Below, in pieces: positions 55,489 to 64,000 of a stretch of 64,000 nucleotides of DNA. This DNA is from Methylotenera sp. (GTDB lineage Bacteria > Pseudomonadota > Gammaproteobacteria > Burkholderiales > Methylophilaceae). Numbering within the stretch: the stretch's first letter is position 1; each line of letters begins with the position of its first letter. The position numbers and the translations under genes were made by a program. The notes under the pieces were generated by a model. That model was not told the DNA's origin and searched no databases. It worked only from the letters and a program-made list of their open reading frames with translations. Location of the stretch: positions 1 to 64,000 of the forward strand of contig JAKFVD010000005.1 in the NCBI GenBank assembly GCA_021732365.1, written 5' to 3'.

Positions 55489-56898
55489 ATGCAAATTTCC
55501 GACAAAATGACGCCAACTGAGTTGCGCGCTACCATCAGCTTGGCTTCTATTTATGGCTTGCGTATGTTAGGTATGTTTTTACTGCTACCCATTTTTGCAA
55601 TTTATGCCGAAAAACTTGATGGCGGCAGTAATCACACACTAATTGGCGTTGCGCTCGGGGCGTATGGCTTAATGCAGGTGTTGCTACAATTACCTTTTGG
55701 CATGGCGTCTGATAAATATGGACGTAAAAAAGTTATTTATATCGGGCTTATTTTGTTTGCCATTGGCAGTGCGGTAGCGGCAATGTCGCAGGATATTTAT
55801 ATCGTGATTATTGGCCGTGCGATTCAAGGTGCAGGCGCGATTTCTGCTGTGGTAACCGCTTTGGTAGCCGATTCAACTCGCGAGGAGCATCGCACCAAAG
55901 CCATGGCGATGATTGGTGCGACTATTGGTTTAACCTTTGCTATCTCTTTGGTGGCTGCGCCTTTGTTAAACCAATTAATTGGTGTGCCGGGTATTTTTTG
56001 GATGACAGCGGTACTGTCTATTTTAGCGATTGGTGTAGTGAAATATGCAGTGCCAGACCCAGTCAGCAGTCAATTTCACTCGGACGCGCAAGCTGCGCCA
56101 AGCAAAATTAAAGATGTGTTGCGTGATGCACAATTACTGCGTTTAAATTTTGGTACCTTTTGCCTGCATGGCGCTCAGATGGCGATGTTTATAGTCGTAC
56201 CATTTGCGTTAAAAGAAACCAGCGGTATCAATGAAAATCAGCATTGGCAAATTTACTTACCCGTATTAATTGCTTCTTTTGTATTGATGGTTCCAGCGAT
56301 TATTTATGCGGAAAAAAGAGCGCAATTAAAATTGGTTTTTATTACTGCAGTGGCATTAATGTTGGTGGCACAAATTGCGTTTGCACTTAATATCCACCTG
56401 TTTTGGGGTATTGTGGCTTCGCTTTTTGTCTATTTTGTTGCGTTTAATATTTTAGAGGCTTCACTCCCATCGCTCATCTCTAAAATGGCACCAGCCGCAT
56501 CCAAAGGCACCGCCATGGGCGTGCATAATACCGCCCAATCATTCGGCATGTTTTTGGGTGCAGTGATGGGCGGATATTTGTCCCATCAATTTGGATTCTC
56601 TGCTGTTTTTATCTTCTGTGCTTTATTAATGTCTCTATGGCTAGTGCTGGCATTTGGCATGAAAACGCCACCGAGTGTGCGCACAAAGATGTATCATATA
56701 GAGGGTTTAAATGATGCAACTGCAGCTGAGTTAACCATTAAAATCAGTCAAATTTCTGGTGTGCAAGAAGTTGTAGTGATTGCAGCGGAAGGGTCAGTGA
56801 TTGTTAAAATAAACAATCAGCAAGGTAAAAAAGCCTTTGCAGATATTGAGCAAGATATAGTTAAATTGATAGGAGCAGACGATGGCATCAGTGAATAA
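55489..56898 (+). CDS. MFS transporter, YajR-like with C-terminal YAM domain
   Basis: 469 residues with 12 membrane helices and MFS motif A ([14 protein letters not shown]), plus motif C-like [18 protein letters not shown]. The C-terminal 75 residues ([20 protein letters not shown]) form a cytoplasmic ferredoxin-like domain as in YajR. Substrate unknown, probably drug/metabolite:H+ antiport. Overlaps ssb by 17 bases; uvrA-MFS-ssb is a familiar betaproteobacterial arrangement. Confidence 0.88.
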
Positions 56899-57385
56899 AG
56901 TGATTTTAGTGGGTAATTTAGGCCGCGACCCAGAAGTGCGCTATATGCCGAACGGCGAGGCGGTTGCTAATTTCAGTATTGCAACGACTGAAAACTGGAA
57001 AGATAAGTCAGGCGTTAAACAAGAAAAAACTGAGTGGCACAATATTGTGATGTACCGCAAATTAGCCGAAATCGCGGGGGAATACCTGAAAAAAGGCCGC
57101 CCAGTTTATGTTGAAGGCCGCTTGCAAACCCGTAAATGGGAAAAAGACGGCGTAACGCGCTATAGCACCGAAATTATTGCTGATAGCATGCAAATGCTAG
57201 GCGGTAAGGATGGTGGTAGTTCAAATGCCAGTTATGATGGTGGTATGGATCAAGGCCAGCCATCTGATGACTTTAATCAATCGCAACCAAGACAACAAAA
57301 CACAGCGCAAAAGCCAGCTAGTCAGCAAGCGCCCGCTAAAACAGGCGGTAATTTTGATGATTTTGAAGACGATATTCCTTTTTGA
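56882..57385 (+). CDS. ssb: Single-stranded DNA-binding protein
   Basis: 167 residues: OB fold ([21 protein letters not shown] to about 110), Gly/Gln/Asn-rich linker and the acidic tip DDFEDDIPF that recruits repair and replication partners. Last core gene before the accessory region. Confidence 0.98.
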
Positions 57386-57400
57386 GGTCTACCTACTTTA

Positions 57401-57516
57401 AAAGTGTAAACAAACCCCATTAACTTCATGAGTTAATGGGGTTTTTCTTTATTTACATATTGTTTTGAGTCTGTTAAATTAATTTATTAAAATATACCTT
57501 CAGAAAGTGTAAACAA
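57401..57516. repeat. 13-bp direct repeat flanking the ssb-recombinase gap
   Basis: AAAGTGTAAACAA occurs exactly at 57401-57413 and at 57504-57516, 103 bases apart. The first copy is just past the ssb stop, the second ends at the A of the first recombinase start codon. This is a candidate attachment core or a pair of recombinase-binding sites at the left end of the mobile element; insertion sites of this kind are usual for tyrosine recombinases, but no other end is visible here. Confidence 0.6.
57412..57446 (+). terminator. Terminator after ssb
   Basis: 14-bp stem AAACCCCATTAACT / AGTTAATGGGGTTT with loop TCATG and a T run; a strong rho-independent terminator. Its left edge touches the first copy of a 13-bp direct repeat (57401-57413). 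Confidence 0.92.
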
Positions 57517-58805
57517 TGACTCAAAAATATCGTATAAAAATTATTGTCACTTCATCAGGAGAACGTCTTCCGATGTTGCTTGGTTGTGATGGTTTTCCGA
57601 TATTTGAACCAACCGTTTTCTCTTTATCAGAGGTGCGTGCGAGAAATAGAGCATCTAATACAATTGATAGTTATCTTAGATCCATCATGGTGTTTTTGTT
57701 ATTTATTGATTTAAGAAATATTAATTTAGAAGAGCGTTTGAATGCTGGTCAGTTACTTTCTTTAGGTGAGATCGAAGATTTGGTCGGAATATGTAGATTA
57801 CCAGTTGAAAATATTCATTCCTTGTTGGATGAAGTTCAAGTAGAGCCAAAGAAAAAAAACTCGTCAGTCGTTTCCTTAGAGAAATTAAGAATGTCTTCAC
57901 CAAATAATAATGTACTTAGAATTAACTCTGGCTCAGCTGCAACTAGATTGAGAAATATCCGTGATTATTTAAGATGGGTTTGTTTGGCCCGCATATCTAA
58001 GCACGGGGTAGATGCATCACTTCGCTTGTCGTTGGAATCATCGGTTCAATATACCTCAAATGCTATTGATGCTCGATTACCATCTGGCGCATACAATCAT
58101 TCAAGAGTTGATCAGCGCGAAGGATTGGAACCAGAAGTCGTTAGTCAAATTTTAAAAGTTATAAATCCACAATCACCTGACAATCCTTGGACTGATGAGC
58201 ATTCAAAGTTCAGAAACGAGTTAATTATCTTGTGGTTATTAAACTTTGGCTTGAGGCGTGGCGAGTTACTCAACATTAGAATAAGTGATCTAGACTTTAG
58301 AGAGTCTACAGCAGCTGTAGTTCGTCGAGCCGACGATCTCTCTGATCCGCGAACTAACCAACCCAAGGTTAAAACTAGAGGGAGAGAAATTCCGTTTACA
58401 CCCGGACTTTTAGATATGACCAACGCTTACATCATGAATCATCGTTCAGTTATACGAGGTGCAAGGAAACATGATTTTCTTTTTGTTGCTTCAGATTCTG
58501 GTTTTCCATTATCAATTCCTTCTTTAAACAAAATATTTACTGTGCTTAAGAAAAAATTTCCAGATGTTGCAAATCAACTATTCCCGCACATACTCCGCCA
58601 CACATGGAATGATAACTTCTCAGAAAAAATGGATAAAAATAGAGTTGGTGAGGAAGAGGAAAAGAAAAATCGATCCTATATGATGGGCTGGTCTGAAACG
58701 TCAGGAACTGCAGCAACCTATACGCGTCGGCATATTCGTAAGAAGTCACAGGCTGCATCGTTAGAACTACAAAAAAGTTTACTGGAAAAGTATGATTATA
58801 AATAA
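57516..58805 (+). CDS. Tyrosine recombinase 1 of a four-gene mobile cassette
   Basis: 429 residues. An N-terminal SAM-like core-binding region (about 30-180) is followed by the catalytic domain (about 205-420). Active-site residues appear complete: Arg in NFGLRRGELL, Lys in KVKTRGREIPF, HxxR in FPHILRHTWN, Trp replacing the last His (MMGWSETSG), and Tyr in AATYTRRH. It starts at the edge of the second direct-repeat copy with no strong ribosome site and overlaps the next gene by 14 bases. Comparable to TnpA of Tn554-type elements or GmtY in size and place; the match is by eye. Confidence 0.9.
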   Translation: MTQKYRIKIIVTSSGERLPMLLGCDGFPIFEPTVFSLSEVRARNRASNTIDSYLRSIMVFLLFIDLRNINLEERLNAGQLLSLGEIEDLVGICRLPVENIHSLLDEVQVEPKKKNSSVVSLEKLRMSSPNNNVLRINSGSAATRLRNIRDYLRWVCLARISKHGVDASLRLSLESSVQYTSNAIDARLPSGAYNHSRVDQREGLEPEVVSQILKVINPQSPDNPWTDEHSKFRNELIILWLLNFGLRRGELLNIRISDLDFRESTAAVVRRADDLSDPRTNQPKVKTRGREIPFTPGLLDMTNAYIMNHRSVIRGARKHDFLFVASDSGFPLSIPSLNKIFTVLKKKFPDVANQLFPHILRHTWNDNFSEKMDKNRVGEEEEKKNRSYMMGWSETSGTAATYTRRHIRKKSQAASLELQKSLLEKYDYK

Positions 58806-60348
58806 ACGCTTGCAGACAGCTTATTTAAGCCAATCTTTACAAGACTTGCCAGAAGAGATAACAACTTTTAATAAAATACGATTTAACCCTAAAAGCGATA
58901 GGTGGTCTTATAGGGATAGCACACAATCAGTAAGCATAAATTTTAAAAGTCTTAATGCGGCGGAAAGCCTCGCTCTTTCAATTAAAAAGGGGTTGATTTG
59001 GTACGCTGAAAATAAATCCTCTGCATACATGTTAGGTATTTTTTCGGTAGTTAAGACAATGTTACTAACTATCGAGCGAGAGAAAAATGAGATTCTATTC
59101 ATTACTGCAAGTGATCTGCTTAACTACAGGTCTACTCTAAGTGTTGAGAAAACATATTATCTTGGACGATTGTCAACATTTCTTAGAAAGCTGGATAGTT
59201 TAGGTCTTTTAGGTGTTAGTGACGATGCAATAACCCTTTTAAAACAACTTCGCCTAAAAGGTTGCGTTAAAGGCGAAGCTGTTTTAACAATGGATCCAAT
59301 TGATGGCCCATATACAGATATTGAAGTTCAATCGATCATTGATGCTGTTAATACGAGTTATGATCTTGGAAAATTTTCATTAGAAAATTACGTACTTGTC
59401 CATTTAATGCTTGCTCTAGGTGCGAGGCCCTCTCAATTCGCATCAATAAAGGTTAGTGATTTTGGAATTAGCGCAGCAAAGGATGGAGCTACTTTATACA
59501 CATTAAATATTCCTCGAGTTAAGCAAAGAGGTTATTTATCTCGTTCTCAATTTACCCAGCGCGTATTAATTCCACATATTGGCGAAAAACTAGCTCAACA
59601 TATTTTTGATTTAAAAATCATGTTTGCAGAAAAATTATCTGACTGTAGCCACGCTCCCCTTTTTCCAGCAAAGCAATCTAAACAAGATGAGCCAGCAGGG
59701 TTCGAATTTCATAAAACAGCTGGAAATTTGGGGCGAACAATAACGAAATCGCTTAATACTCTAGAGGTTTTTTCTGAACGAACCGGAGAACAACTACACA
59801 TTACTCCAATACGATTTCGCCGTACATTAGGTACTCGAGCCGCGATGGAAGGTCATGGAGAACTAGTTATTGCTGAGCTTTTAGATCATACAGACACTCA
59901 GAATGTCGGTGTTTACGTTCAAGCTACTCCTGAGATCGTTGGACGAATTGACAGGGCAATGGCATTACATCTTGCGCCACTTGCACAGGCGTTTTCCGGG
60001 GTAATAATTAAAAACGAGTCTGAGGCGAGGCGAAAGGACGACCCAACAAGTCGTATTTGCGAGCCGCGTTTTGAGCCTTCGATGAAACCGATGGGTAACT
60101 GTGGTCAATATGGCTTCTGTGGCCAGTTAGCGCCAATTTCGTGCTATACATGCCGCAACTTTCAACCCTGGTTAGATGGTCCACACGAAGCAGTACTAAA
60201 TCATCTTATTTCAGAGCGTGAACGTTTAATGGTTACAAGTGACTCCCGAATAGCTTCAATCAATGACAGAACAATTTTAGCTGTGGCATATGTTGTGAAA
60301 CGTTGTGATGAAATAAAAAATGGAATGAGTGAGACTGTTAATGGCTGA
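58792..60348 (+). CDS. Tyrosine recombinase 2 with Cys-rich tail
   Basis: 518 residues. N-terminal core-binding region (about 60-170), catalytic domain (about 180-400) with Arg in LALGARPSQF, Lys in VKQRGYL, Arg in ITPIRFRRTLGTR, His in LLDHTDTQNVGVYVQ with the Tyr following. The usual HxxR box reads IxxR, so one catalytic His is absent. After about residue 410 a Cys-rich tail (CEPRF, NCGQYGFCGQ, SCYTCRNFQPW) looks like a zinc-binding module, as in large TnpB-type recombinases. Overlaps both neighbours. Confidence 0.88.
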   Translation: MIINKRLQTAYLSQSLQDLPEEITTFNKIRFNPKSDRWSYRDSTQSVSINFKSLNAAESLALSIKKGLIWYAENKSSAYMLGIFSVVKTMLLTIEREKNEILFITASDLLNYRSTLSVEKTYYLGRLSTFLRKLDSLGLLGVSDDAITLLKQLRLKGCVKGEAVLTMDPIDGPYTDIEVQSIIDAVNTSYDLGKFSLENYVLVHLMLALGARPSQFASIKVSDFGISAAKDGATLYTLNIPRVKQRGYLSRSQFTQRVLIPHIGEKLAQHIFDLKIMFAEKLSDCSHAPLFPAKQSKQDEPAGFEFHKTAGNLGRTITKSLNTLEVFSERTGEQLHITPIRFRRTLGTRAAMEGHGELVIAELLDHTDTQNVGVYVQATPEIVGRIDRAMALHLAPLAQAFSGVIIKNESEARRKDDPTSRICEPRFEPSMKPMGNCGQYGFCGQLAPISCYTCRNFQPWLDGPHEAVLNHLISERERLMVTSDSRIASINDRTILAVAYVVKRCDEIKNGMSETVNG

Positions 60349-62389
60349 CATTATAATATTCCAACCCCAAGCCGAGATTGATGCTGCTGGAAATTTACGT
60401 ATATTTATTAACTTATGCCAAAAAGAGTTGAAGGTGTTTGGCGCAGAGTTACCCTTTAAAGAAGACACATGGGATATTTCTGACTCTATTAATTTAAATG
60501 GCCACGGTAATAAACGGCATCGACTGGTTTTTAGCAATCTGGAAACTGTTAATGATGACTCGCCTATTTCGATGGCTGAACCATTTTTATCTTTTGCTAA
60601 AGCCTACTTTCGCTACATGCAAGGATTTAGACCTGTCAATGGTACAGGCCCAAGGCTCGTTGCATTAAGAGCTTTGGAAGCGGCTTTGAGAGAGTCTGGC
60701 GGCGATGCCGATCCAATTCGATCTGACTTGCATATCTTTAACCGTGCTGCTCAGATGATTGTTGAGAAATACTCTGCCGCTGCCGCCTATAGACAAGGCG
60801 GTCAACTTGAAATGCTTTCTGAGTTTTTATGTGATAACAAACTTACAACAGTATCAGTGCGCTGGAGAAATTTCATAATGCGGCCAAAAGATACAGTTAG
60901 GGTTGGTAAAGAGTTTGATGAAAGACGTAATGACAAGATGCCAACCCAGGCAGCATTGGATGCATTACCTGAAATATTTCTCAGAGCAGTTGAGCCTATT
61001 GATGTGATTGTAAGTTCAGTTGCTGCATTACTATGTGCTTCTCCAGACCGAATAAGTGAGGTGTTATCACTGCCTCATGATTGTGAAGTCAAGCAAAAAA
61101 ATATTAAAACAGGAGTGGAGGCTTATGGTCTCAGATGGTGGCCAGCTAAAGGTGCAGAGCCAATGATTAAATGGGTTGTTCCCTCTATGGCTAGCGTTGT
61201 ACAAGTTGCTATTACAAAAATAAGTAAAATAACTGACGAGTCACGCCGCATTGCTCAATGGTATGAGAGCCACCCTAATCAGTTGTATTTATCACAAAGT
61301 ATCGAATATCTACGTTTGCAAGAATGGTTATCTATGGCTGACTTGAGATCCATTTTTGGATTTACACAAAGTAATAGTGCCTTGGCATGGTGCAAGAGTA
61401 ATAGCATTGAGGTTGATAAAAAATTGGGGAAAATGTATGTGCGATTTTCTCATGTTGAAAAATCCATAGTTAAGATGTTACCTGTTGGCTTCCCAATAAT
61501 GGATAAAAACACTGGTTGTAAATATAGCGATGCATTGTTTGTTATGCGCACTTACGAGTTAGGATCTCAAAAAGCGACTTTAAATTGTATGATTGAATCT
61601 GTAAGTATTAATCAGATAAACACTGGTCTTGGCGGACGCGTTGAACATGGACATGAGTCTATATTTTCTCGATTTGGATATACAGAACCTGATGGTAGCA
61701 ATATCAACATTTCTACACATATATTTAGGCATTATTTAAATACATTGGCACAAGCTGGGGGGTTAAGCCAAATTGATATTGCCAAATGGTCTGGCCGTAA
61801 AGATATAAAGCAGAACGTTGCTTATGACCATGTTACTCCAGGTCAAATGGTCCAGAAAATTAGAGACGCGATTGGTGATGAAAATATTATGTTTGGTCCA
61901 CTTACAGAATTGTCCAAAAAAACGCTTATTCCAAGAGATGATTTTGCTAGATTGGTAGTGCCTACTGCACATACTACTGAACTGGGTTATTGCATTCATG
62001 ACTATACGATGTCCCCATGCCAAACTCACTTAGATTGCATAAATTGTACAGATTTGATTTGCATTAAAGGCGACTTCGAAAAAGAATTAAAATTGCGAAT
62101 TCAATTAGATGAATCCAGAGAATTGATGCTTAAAGCAGAACTGGCAACTAAAGAACATTATTATGGCAGCGATAGATGGTTTGATCATCATAAGGTCACA
62201 TTCGAGCGATTGTCAGAGCTTTTGTCAATCATGGATAATCCTAGTGTACCCAAGGGAGCGGTGATACAGTTATCTCCACCGAAATCCCCAACCCAGATAA
62301 TATCTATGCAAAAGAAACTAAACAAATCAGCCAAGAATGTTAACAACCCAACTATTGCACTTAGTCAAGAAAACTTTAAAAAGGACTAG
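60341..62389 (+). CDS. Tyrosine recombinase 3 (large), with Cys-rich tail
   Basis: About 682 residues from the ATG at 60341, which overlaps the previous stop by 8 bases; a GTG four codons upstream is an alternative. A long N-terminal half has no recognised domain. The catalytic part (about 230-520) shows Arg in ASPDRISEVL, HxxR in STHIFRHYLNT, Trp in AKWSGRKD and Tyr in NVAYDHV. A cluster CIHDYTMSPC ... CINCTDLIC (about 550-580) suggests a zinc site, followed by a coiled coil and Lys-rich tail. Size and layout recall GmtZ or the third recombinase of trio elements. Confidence 0.85.
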   Translation: MADIIIFQPQAEIDAAGNLRIFINLCQKELKVFGAELPFKEDTWDISDSINLNGHGNKRHRLVFSNLETVNDDSPISMAEPFLSFAKAYFRYMQGFRPVNGTGPRLVALRALEAALRESGGDADPIRSDLHIFNRAAQMIVEKYSAAAAYRQGGQLEMLSEFLCDNKLTTVSVRWRNFIMRPKDTVRVGKEFDERRNDKMPTQAALDALPEIFLRAVEPIDVIVSSVAALLCASPDRISEVLSLPHDCEVKQKNIKTGVEAYGLRWWPAKGAEPMIKWVVPSMASVVQVAITKISKITDESRRIAQWYESHPNQLYLSQSIEYLRLQEWLSMADLRSIFGFTQSNSALAWCKSNSIEVDKKLGKMYVRFSHVEKSIVKMLPVGFPIMDKNTGCKYSDALFVMRTYELGSQKATLNCMIESVSINQINTGLGGRVEHGHESIFSRFGYTEPDGSNINISTHIFRHYLNTLAQAGGLSQIDIAKWSGRKDIKQNVAYDHVTPGQMVQKIRDAIGDENIMFGPLTELSKKTLIPRDDFARLVVPTAHTTELGYCIHDYTMSPCQTHLDCINCTDLICIKGDFEKELKLRIQLDESRELMLKAELATKEHYYGSDRWFDHHKVTFERLSELLSIMDNPSVPKGAVIQLSPPKSPTQIISMQKKLNKSAKNVNNPTIALSQENFKKD

Positions 62390-62390
62390 A

Positions 62391-62804
62391 ATGAAACAAA
62401 CTAGAGCAAAAAATCTTGATGATGCAGATATTAAAAAAATAGTTGAAATTTTAGATGGCTGGTCTGAAAAATTAACATGGGATTTGTTAATTGATGCTGT
62501 CGAATTACGTCTTCACAATCGCTACACACGACAGACACTCCACAAACATGAACGTATTAAAAATGCTTTCGAACTTCGAAAAGCTGCGCTAGCAGACGGC
62601 AACGAAGAAATTCGGGTTGTTCGCTCTCCAGAATTACAAAAGGCTTTAGAACGAATCGCAAGGTTCGAAGCGGAAAGTAAGCGGCTAGAATCTGAGAATC
62701 AACAATTATTAGAACAATTTGCACGTTGGGCATATAACGCTCATACGCGTGGACTAGATTCAAATTTCTTAAATAAACCGTTGCCACCTGTTAACCGTGG
62801 TTAA
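62391..62804 (+). CDS. Small accessory protein of the recombinase cassette (TnpC/GmtX-like position)
   Basis: 137 residues from ATG 62391 with AAGGA upstream, one base after the third recombinase. The N-terminal half (KQTRAKNLDDADIKKIVEILDGWSEKLTW region, then RYTRQTLHKHERIKNAF) looks like a helical DNA-binding module; residues about 85-118 form a coiled coil (LERIARFEAESKRLESENQQLLEQ). This design, helix-turn-helix-like head plus coiled coil, is that of Tn554 TnpC-type accessory proteins; function here is inferred from position. Confidence 0.8.
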   Translation: MKQTRAKNLDDADIKKIVEILDGWSEKLTWDLLIDAVELRLHNRYTRQTLHKHERIKNAFELRKAALADGNEEIRVVRSPELQKALERIARFEAESKRLESENQQLLEQFARWAYNAHTRGLDSNFLNKPLPPVNRG

Positions 62805-62922
62805 AAACAGATGCACCAATAATATTAATCCAGATTCAAATATGCGCTACTTAGACATTTGAATTTATACTAATAAATTGTAAGCAAGTTTCAATTCTGT
62901 AAGTTATAACAAAAATACAAAA
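62805..62922. other. Boundary between recombinase cassette and restriction cargo
   Basis: A 118-base AT-rich gap. It should carry the hsdR promoter. No copy of the 13-bp direct repeat, no hairpin with a T run and no open frame were seen. Confidence 0.4.
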
Positions 62923-64000
62923 TGATATCGAAAAAAGAGCTATCTGAACGTGACATTTGTACTAAGTATATTCAGCCCGCTTTAGAAAAAGCAGGCTGGG
63001 ATAAGCTCACTCAAATTCGTGAAGAAGTTAGCTTTACTGATGGACGAATTTACGTAAAAGGTAATCTTACTTCGCGAGGTAAAGGTAAGCGAGCAGATTA
63101 CATCTTGTATTACAAACCGAATATCCCGATTGCAATTATTGAGGCTAAAGACAATAAGCAGAGTATTAAGGCAGGTATTCAACAGGCCTTAGATTATTCG
63201 AATATACTTGATATACCGTCAGTTTTCAGCAGTAATGGCGATGGATTCTACCAGCACGACCGCACTTGCACAGATGGCGAAATTGAAAAAGAGCTGAGTC
63301 TTGATCAATTCCCCACGCCAGAAGAACTTTGGGAGCGTTATAAAAAATTCAAAGGTATTGTTACCGAAGAGCAGGAGCGTATTAGTGCGCAAGATTATTT
63401 CTTTGATGGCACTAATCGCAAGCCTCGCTACTATCAACAAATCGCCATAAACCGTACTGTAGAAGCTATTGCCAAAGGTCAGCAACGCATTTTGCTTACG
63501 ATGGCAACAGGCACAGGGAAAACTTATACCGCCTTTCAGATTATTCACAGGCTATGGAAAAGCGGCACAAAAAAACGCATTCTATTTTTAGCTGACCGCA
63601 ACGCACTTATAGACCAGACAAGGCGCGGAGACTTTCGTCATTTCAAAGATAAAATGACAGTCATTAAGCAAAAGAAGATTGATAAATCCTACGAAATCTA
63701 CCTCGCTCTTTATCAGGGTTTGACCAACTACGACGAAGACAAAGATGCTTATCGTGAGTTTAGTCCTGATTTTTTCGACCTCATCGTGATTGATGAGTGT
63801 CACCGTGGGAGCGCTTCAGAAGACAGTGCTTGGCGCGAGATTCTAAGTTATTTCAAAAGTGCTACCCACATTGGTTTAACAGCAACACCAAAAGAAACTG
63901 AAACAATCTCTAGCACTGAATATTTTGGCGATCCTATCTATACCTATTCGCTTAAACAGGGCATTCAGGATGGTTTTCTAGCGCCATATAAAGTGGTTCG
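62923..64000 (+). CDS. hsdR: Type I restriction enzyme R subunit (HsdR), N-terminal part
   Basis: The first 359 codons of a restriction/translocase subunit that runs off the window. N-terminal nuclease region contains the D...EAK pair ([20 protein letters not shown], about residues 45-65). The SF2 motor follows: Walker [19 protein letters not shown]-type IDECHRG and motif [16 protein letters not shown] start at 62923. It is 118 bases after the recombinase cassette; hsdM and hsdS are not visible and would be expected to the right. Confidence 0.93.

Follow-up and report, generated by a model that had tools for sequence, protein, structure and literature searches.

A Methylotenera genomic island read as a GInt, with a ginABCD recombinase operon at the tip codons of ssb and anti-phage defence cargo

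We analysed a window of 64,000 nucleotides (positions 1 to 64,000 of contig JAKFVD010000005.1, hereafter C9:1-64000) from the 2.5-Mb draft genome of a Methylotenera species. Behind the single-stranded DNA-binding protein gene ssb, it carries three recombinase genes encoding 429, 518 and 682 amino acids (aa) and a 137-aa gene, followed by the type I restriction gene hsdR, all present as open reading frames (ORFs), as an initial annotation of this DNA had described. We conclude that this cassette is almost certainly a ginABCD operon, standing at the left end of a GInt that is integrated at the C-terminal tip codons of SSB, because its gene order, protein sizes, ssb target and cargo match the published description of these islands (PMC5385486). 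There, a GInt is defined by three large recombinases and a small protein in ginABCD order, and GInts are reported to occur in Betaproteobacteria, to prefer the end of ssb, to start their cargo at ginD and to carry restriction-modification genes; mutation of any of the four gin genes of another GInt abolished both excision and integration. Blocks of ginC-ginD have been counted in 69 betaproteobacterial replicons (PMC10214605), and GInts have been described as defence-carrying islands in Escherichia coli, under the name Tn6571-family, with CBASS (cyclic-oligonucleotide-based anti-phage signalling system) listed in a figure legend (PMC10121019). The betaproteobacterial occurrence and the ssb site of GInts are thus already published, and the window adds a member from the Methylophilaceae. 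The initial annotation rightly saw, behind the ssb of a betaproteobacterium, a mobile recombinase module that carries defence cargo; its statement that the set matched no known element exactly does not hold, as the four genes correspond, member by member and in order, to those of the catalogued GInt (PMC5385486), an outcome that it had itself named as a refutation. The features of the locus are as follows.

56882..57385, + strand: ssb, the host target gene (ORF); the encoded SSB ends in ...EDDIPF before the stop
57377..57382, + strand: attL core hexamer CCTTTT, Pro-Phe codons of the SSB tip and putative exchange point (homology with base-resolved attL/attB pairs in plasmid relatives)
57383..57411, + strand: putative left element end, TGA stop codon plus arm motif TACC-N11-TGTAAAC (TGTAA/TGTTAA motif 17-20 nt past the ssb stop in 46/47 loci)
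57412..57451, + strand: terminator hairpin, 14-bp stem and T run (simple scan; inside the element by homology)
57493..57513, + strand: second arm-like motif TATACC-N10-GTAAA, directly 5' of ginA (similar motif in 8/47 loci)
57516..58805, + strand: ginA, tyrosine recombinase, 429 aa (PF00589, E 1.4e-15)
58792..60348, + strand: ginB, tyrosine recombinase, 518 aa, C-terminal four-Cys motif (NF041502 integrase_1, 564.6 bits; model matches XerA and Cre)
60341..62389, + strand: ginC, large recombinase-fold protein, 682 aa, C-terminal Cys/His motif (model matches Cre and Tn1549 integrase; catalytic-type residues invariant)
62391..62804, + strand: ginD, small auxiliary protein, 137 aa (aligned with 26 relatives)
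62922..64000, continuing to C9:65309, + strand: hsdR, first cargo gene (EcoAI/FtnUII family, 604 bits against a cut-off of 550)
Past the window, to C9:72533: hsdM, hsdS, SLFN_AlbA_2, yggL, capP-capH and a truncated CD-NTase gene

All four gin reading frames are open and closely packed. ginA and ginB overlap by 14 nt and ginB and ginC by 8 nt, but ginC and ginD lie one base apart, so that the initial description of four overlapping genes applies to the first two junctions and not to the third. An alternative GTG start at 60329 would extend GinC to 686 aa. The gap between ginD and hsdR measures 117 bases, so the cargo starts directly past ginD. The four-gene operon in ginABCD order (an operon by gene layout), the recombinase domains or fold, the ssb 3' end and the cargo after ginD were all found, as expected for a GInt. 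The likeness extends to the restriction-modification nature of the cargo and, in relatives, to short, imperfect att repeats with a 6-nt core. The one difference concerns GinC, which here has a complete catalytic set; no feature excludes membership.

GinA and GinB both matched the Pfam phage-integrase model. Neither GinC nor GinD had a Pfam or NCBIfam family above cut-off in hmmscan searches; in GInts, GinC has the recombinase fold but often goes unrecognised. Catalytic roles were assigned by motif and fold, with AlphaFold models based on alignments of relatives providing the fold matches. The GinB model (pLDDT 85.4) matched XerA (E 1.4e-8) and Cre (E 4.3e-8), and the best solved structures for the GinC model (pLDDT 78.6) were Cre (E 3.0e-5) and then the Tn1549 integrase (E 2.2e-4), both with low TM-scores. 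Residues R237, K270, H460, R463, R486 and Y495 of GinC (682-aa numbering) were invariant in 43/43 aligned sequences, and this R-K-H-R-R-Y set was kept in all 67 copies of a larger set numbered from the longer start. Both arginines and the tyrosine of GinA were found in 74/74 sequences and its first histidine in 47/74. GinB kept the lysine, the second arginine, the last histidine and the tyrosine in 71/71 sequences, with an arginine at one of two adjacent positions for the first arginine in 70/71 and a histidine at the first-histidine position in 1/71. These results disagree with PMC10214605, where GinC is said to lack the catalytic motif, and with PMC5385486, where its first arginine is said to be missing; other GInts were examined there, so families may differ. 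We found no earlier statement of an intact GinC catalytic set to set against this published lack of the motif. Behind the catalytic domains, conserved cysteine (and histidine) clusters of zinc-binding-like appearance occur at positions 437-454 of GinB and 551-569 of GinC.

To place the cassette among its relatives, we scanned GTDB contigs with a GinB alignment, which gave 86 related loci, 80 of them kept; they are a sample by GinB similarity, not a random one. Leaving out the copy in a twin metagenome-assembled genome (MAG) and adding three plasmid loci, we examined 82 loci (79 of the 80 plus three). The order ginA-B-C-D was uninterrupted in 61 of these, so the cassette is not a chance arrangement. 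The other 21 comprised nine loci at or near a contig end, seven with split or fused genes and five without a called ginD. The ginC profile also matches GinB proteins, and labels were given by best score, consistent with position and size. When 300 genomes were searched with NF041502, 166 had matches at E 0.001, mostly ordinary integrases, and one was above the cut-off.

The target site was equally recurrent. At least 900 bp of upstream sequence was available for 64 of the 82 loci, and SSB tip codons stood directly upstream in 55, 46 of them recognised by ORF (ssb within 400 bp of ginA) and nine, whose ssb genes had been overlooked by ORF picking, recovered by sequence. Across the 46 loci and the window, SSB ends in Ile/Val/Leu-Pro-Phe plus stop, with 43/47 fitting a stricter pattern. 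Occupied and empty sites could be paired at base level for pTROUS1 (with p3541_2 and pCT14), pETN48 (with F), an IncN plasmid (with pD18-1 and p17285-IMP) and a P1-like plasmid (with P1 and SJ46). For pTROUS1, the empty site reads ATTCCGTTC joined to ATGGATCC, and the occupied one ATTCCGTTC joined to TGAAACCC on the left and GAACCGTTC joined to ATGGATCC on the right. Since these natural pairs fix the joint to the base, the core is the Pro-Phe hexamer, the stop codon comes with the element, and whatever lies right of the joint, any terminator included, is part of the element. The target is best read as the codons of the SSB tip DDIPF, with CCNTTY as the probable exchange point. The attL of the window copy is present by homology, which likewise places its hexamer at 57377-57382 and the putative exact element boundary; both attL and attR are resolved in relatives. 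The initial annotation had set the cassette just after the ssb terminator: the hairpin at 57412-57451 exists, but it lies inside the element by homology with the base-resolved relatives. The same simple scan found a terminator-like hairpin between ssb and ginA in 23/47 loci. The motif at 57493-57513, a possible operator or additional recombinase site, repeats the end motif just before the ginA start, as was also seen in the closest relatives and in pTROUS1. Neither a literature search nor the accessible text of PMC10214605, PMC10121019 and PMC8865565 gave an earlier statement of the tip-codon target or of plasmid ssb sites; plasmid-borne GInts as such are probably already known from the IncpRBL16 plasmid paper cited by PMC10121019.

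Plasmids also provided evidence of movement. By tblastn, 143 of 72,556 plasmid records had a GinB relative, 44 of them over at least 80% of its length. Ten records were chosen for variety, not at random, and nine of them had ssb or SSB-tip codons directly upstream (eight annotated ssb genes, and that of Azospirillum by sequence); in the Caballeronia record, neither was seen upstream. The GinB query had no match among phage records, though a GInt is present in a P1-like plasmid record. One and the same GInt, which includes Avs4 and AbiGi-family genes, occupies pETN48 (IncF), the IncN plasmid and the P1-like IncY phage-plasmid, in each case at the replicon's own ssb. Over 11,896 bp, its IncN and P1-like copies show 100% identity. 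The IncF copy carries an additional IS3-family transposase gene, and two parts of it that were compared with the IncN copy showed 99.97% and 99.95% identity; the IncF and IncN ssb genes share 62% DNA identity. This GInt relative has recently been mobile, as identical copies stand at different sites, and the related copies point to movement of such islands among chromosomes, plasmids and a phage-plasmid.

The core hexamers of these insertions differ in an orderly way. The IncN plasmid has CCATTT at the empty site and at attL, and CCGTTC at attR; the P1-like plasmid has CCGTTT at attL, as in the empty sites of P1 and SJ46, and CCGTTC at attR; all IncF hexamers, with F as the empty site, are CCGTTC and uninformative. 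The target hexamer was thus kept at attL and the carried one found at attR in 2/2 informative insertions, the rule that PMC10214605 describes for the strand-biased circularizing integrative elements (SEs). We found no earlier statement of this identical pair of insertions or of their hexamer pattern. A relative of the window island in genome G035 has CCGTTT at attL and, at an attR candidate (222989-223018, for which a first candidate at 223418 was dropped), CCATTT, which would fit the rule, with no empty partner. Two agreeing cases would be expected by chance 1 in 4 times if both directions were equally likely, and both resolutions were seen among excised circles (PMC5385486); we therefore take the pattern as a lead. 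In another P1-like replicon (E. coli AR_0372, L210:4501-6107), a 74-bp stretch directly past ssb is 90.5% identical to a GInt left end and is followed by an anti-phage dGTPase gene, with no gin gene and no right end seen. This stretch recurs at 90-95% in about 50 plasmid records, one of which was opened, and in the phage record vB_EcoM-673R5; it is possibly a non-autonomous derivative.

Closer to the window, GinC relatives were found in six of 120 genomes searched, its own included. The twin MAG (G014) holds an identical ginC copy at the same ssb; in G035, a GinC with 74% identity lies behind ssb, and the cargo includes, by eye, a further set of type I restriction genes. G068 and G070 hold more distant four-gene sets, which match all four profiles and are not behind ssb. 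The ssb gene itself was matched in 60 of 61 genomes searched, again including its own, and the 30 best-scoring loci from these 60 were fetched. A ginA-type gene adjoined ssb in four of the 30 (its own genome, G014, G021 and G002), an fmdB-like gene, by eye, in nine and other genes in 13, and four were too short to tell. The island is variable and not core genome, since many relatives have ssb with no such operon beside it; the possibility of a conserved core locus, which the initial annotation had named as fatal to its claim, was thereby rejected. Upstream of ssb, the window carries a uvrA-like and an MFS-type gene (both named by eye). In G035, the linkage of MFS-type gene and ssb is kept, and the SSB next to the island (G035:C1:204131-204589) is 45% identical to that of the window, below the other family genomes listed.

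The cargo consists, in order, of hsdR, hsdM, hsdS, an SLFN_AlbA_2 (Schlafen/AlbA) protein, YggL, CapP, CapH and a CD-NTase cyclase (NCBIfam, PADLOC, Pfam). The cyclase, of 234 aa, stops where a 127-bp repeat, probably an insertion sequence, begins at the contig end; the cargo reaches the contig end and the CBASS locus is incomplete as assembled. The repeat is also found at one end of contigs C2, C19 and C14; with its opposite end, C14 and C17 begin and C16 terminates. The reading frames listed for these contigs, over 12-20 kb each, showed by eye nothing that would continue the cyclase, and the cyclase profile had only weak matches elsewhere in the genome.

Several points weigh against reading the locus as a GInt that targets the SSB tip. 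The assignment compares it with the description published in the 2017 paper rather than with the Gin sequences studied there. The right end, or attR, of the window copy was not found; the contig stops within the cargo at the repeat, ahead of where the AT-rich 3' end of a GInt would be expected. Right-end patterns had no exact match in its own genome and, with one mismatch allowed, 9 matches versus 29 in a reversed control. The fmdB-like gene that follows ssb in nine relatives lies elsewhere in this genome, so that the empty site cannot be read locally. Among related operons, 9/64 are not behind an SSB tip, and the hexamer rule draws on two informative insertions and one candidate. A stricter right-end pattern had one match, in G035, where the control also had one. 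The fmdB-like gene on C6 was dropped as the far flank, being preceded by chromosomal-looking genes, and an 8-base resemblance of C6 to the sequence that follows ssb in G003 was set aside as coding. At C1:343432-343448 (- strand; also at G014:C36:4960), a right-end-like GTTTAC-N8-GGTA-N3-ACAACCGTTC is followed by TGA and an AT-rich flank; it was discarded as the right end, as it is among the one-mismatch matches that fall below the control and its neighbourhood is not that of this island. The nine operons away from an SSB tip are L097, L100, L106, L109, L123, L128, L149, L158 and L166; in L109, ssb is 560 bp away, and L100 abuts GInt right-end-like sequence. Tepidimonas fonticaldi has two gin operons, L099 and L100, whose ORF coordinates agree and which are separated by ~22 kb of a single contig; the position of L100 suggests a tandem insertion. 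In L149 (Thorsellia anophelis, a species for which four loci were returned), the operon follows a gene other than ssb that encodes a protein with DEMPF at its end; this gene may be a secondary target that shares the hexamer.

Among the alternatives, the one that survives best is a dead remnant, in which an old GInt no longer moves and its genes are retained as a defence island. The cyclase cut by the repeat and the right end missing from the draft genome would fit this, but the four gin genes are open and their catalytic-type residues are kept, and the twin MAG carries this ginC unchanged at the same ssb, evidence that it is present but not that it is active. We consider a remnant possible, though rather unlikely. 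A strict Tn554-family transposon (TnpA, TnpB, TnpC) with one gained gene is improbable. Tn554 does share an ordinary and a large recombinase, a small protein and site specificity (PMC10214605), Tn6571/ginABCD elements have been grouped as a Tn554 subfamily (PMC8865565), and a low GinD-TnpC similarity is reported, with data not shown there (PMC5385486). GinC could moreover be the TnpB counterpart by position, intact catalytic set and size. Nevertheless, Tn554 has three genes, not four, and all four were needed in the tested GInt; we rejected the strict form on this gene content, by which, and not by protein comparison, the two are set apart. The SEs resemble the GInt in having four genes ending in one for a small coiled-coil protein, a 6-bp core and the placement of target and carried hexamers seen in the GInt relative. 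They differ in order (intA-tfp-intB-srap) and proteins (IntA, Tfp, IntB, Srap); SE and GInt proteins fall into separate clusters, with no similarity between their genes (PMC10214605). RIT elements likewise have three adjacent tyrosine recombinases but were rejected on sizes, as the archetype has three genes only, for recombinases of 315-410 aa (table note in PMC10214605), against 429, 518 and 682 aa plus the 137-aa gene here. Finally, the gamma-mobile-trio (GMT) elements also join a multi-recombinase module to defence cargo, but a version of them from Betaproteobacteria or with four genes is extremely unlikely: an NCBIfam hmmscan of the four proteins gave no Gmt model (GmtX and GmtZ being covered by this whole-library scan only) and the best match to NF040693 recomb_GmtY in the genome scored 24 bits (cut-off 340) and lay at other genes, which refutes membership for GmtY. 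The initial annotation was right to set the cassette apart from Tn554, RIT and GMT elements.

With the GInt reading retained, GinA, GinB and GinC would act together as tyrosine recombinases with GinD as small helper. They would circularise the element by joining its ends, with six bases from beside the left end kept in the circle, and integrate it at a further ssb tip, with exchange in the Pro-Phe hexamer. SSB would keep its DDIPF end after insertion, because a stop codon comes with the element; some copies also bring a terminator. The cargo here would serve anti-phage defence through type I restriction-modification and the start of a CBASS locus. The window copy is presumed to be, or to have been, active, and the order of these steps is likewise presumed. 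We lean slightly towards a broader proposal, in which the SSB-tip codons are a near-universal landing site, including those of conjugative plasmids and phage-plasmids, movement is strand-biased and GinC is a full recombinase rather than a degenerate relative that only binds DNA, all three recombinases keeping the nucleophilic tyrosine. The circle would carry the donor hexamer and leave it at the next attR, with the target hexamer staying at attL, so that the attR hexamer would record the previous host.

With the window, the known set gains a GInt from the Methylophilaceae whose cargo comprises type I restriction and CBASS genes, and its relatives offer an explanation for two earlier observations, namely that one target is common to very different GInts and ssb genes, which was called remarkable (PMC5385486), and that GInts are listed among defence islands whose mobilisation is unclear (PMC10121019). 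The hexamer pattern makes the strand bias of GInts, called elusive in PMC10214605, testable from sequence. If true, the broader proposal would explain how defence islands spread between species by elements without transfer genes.

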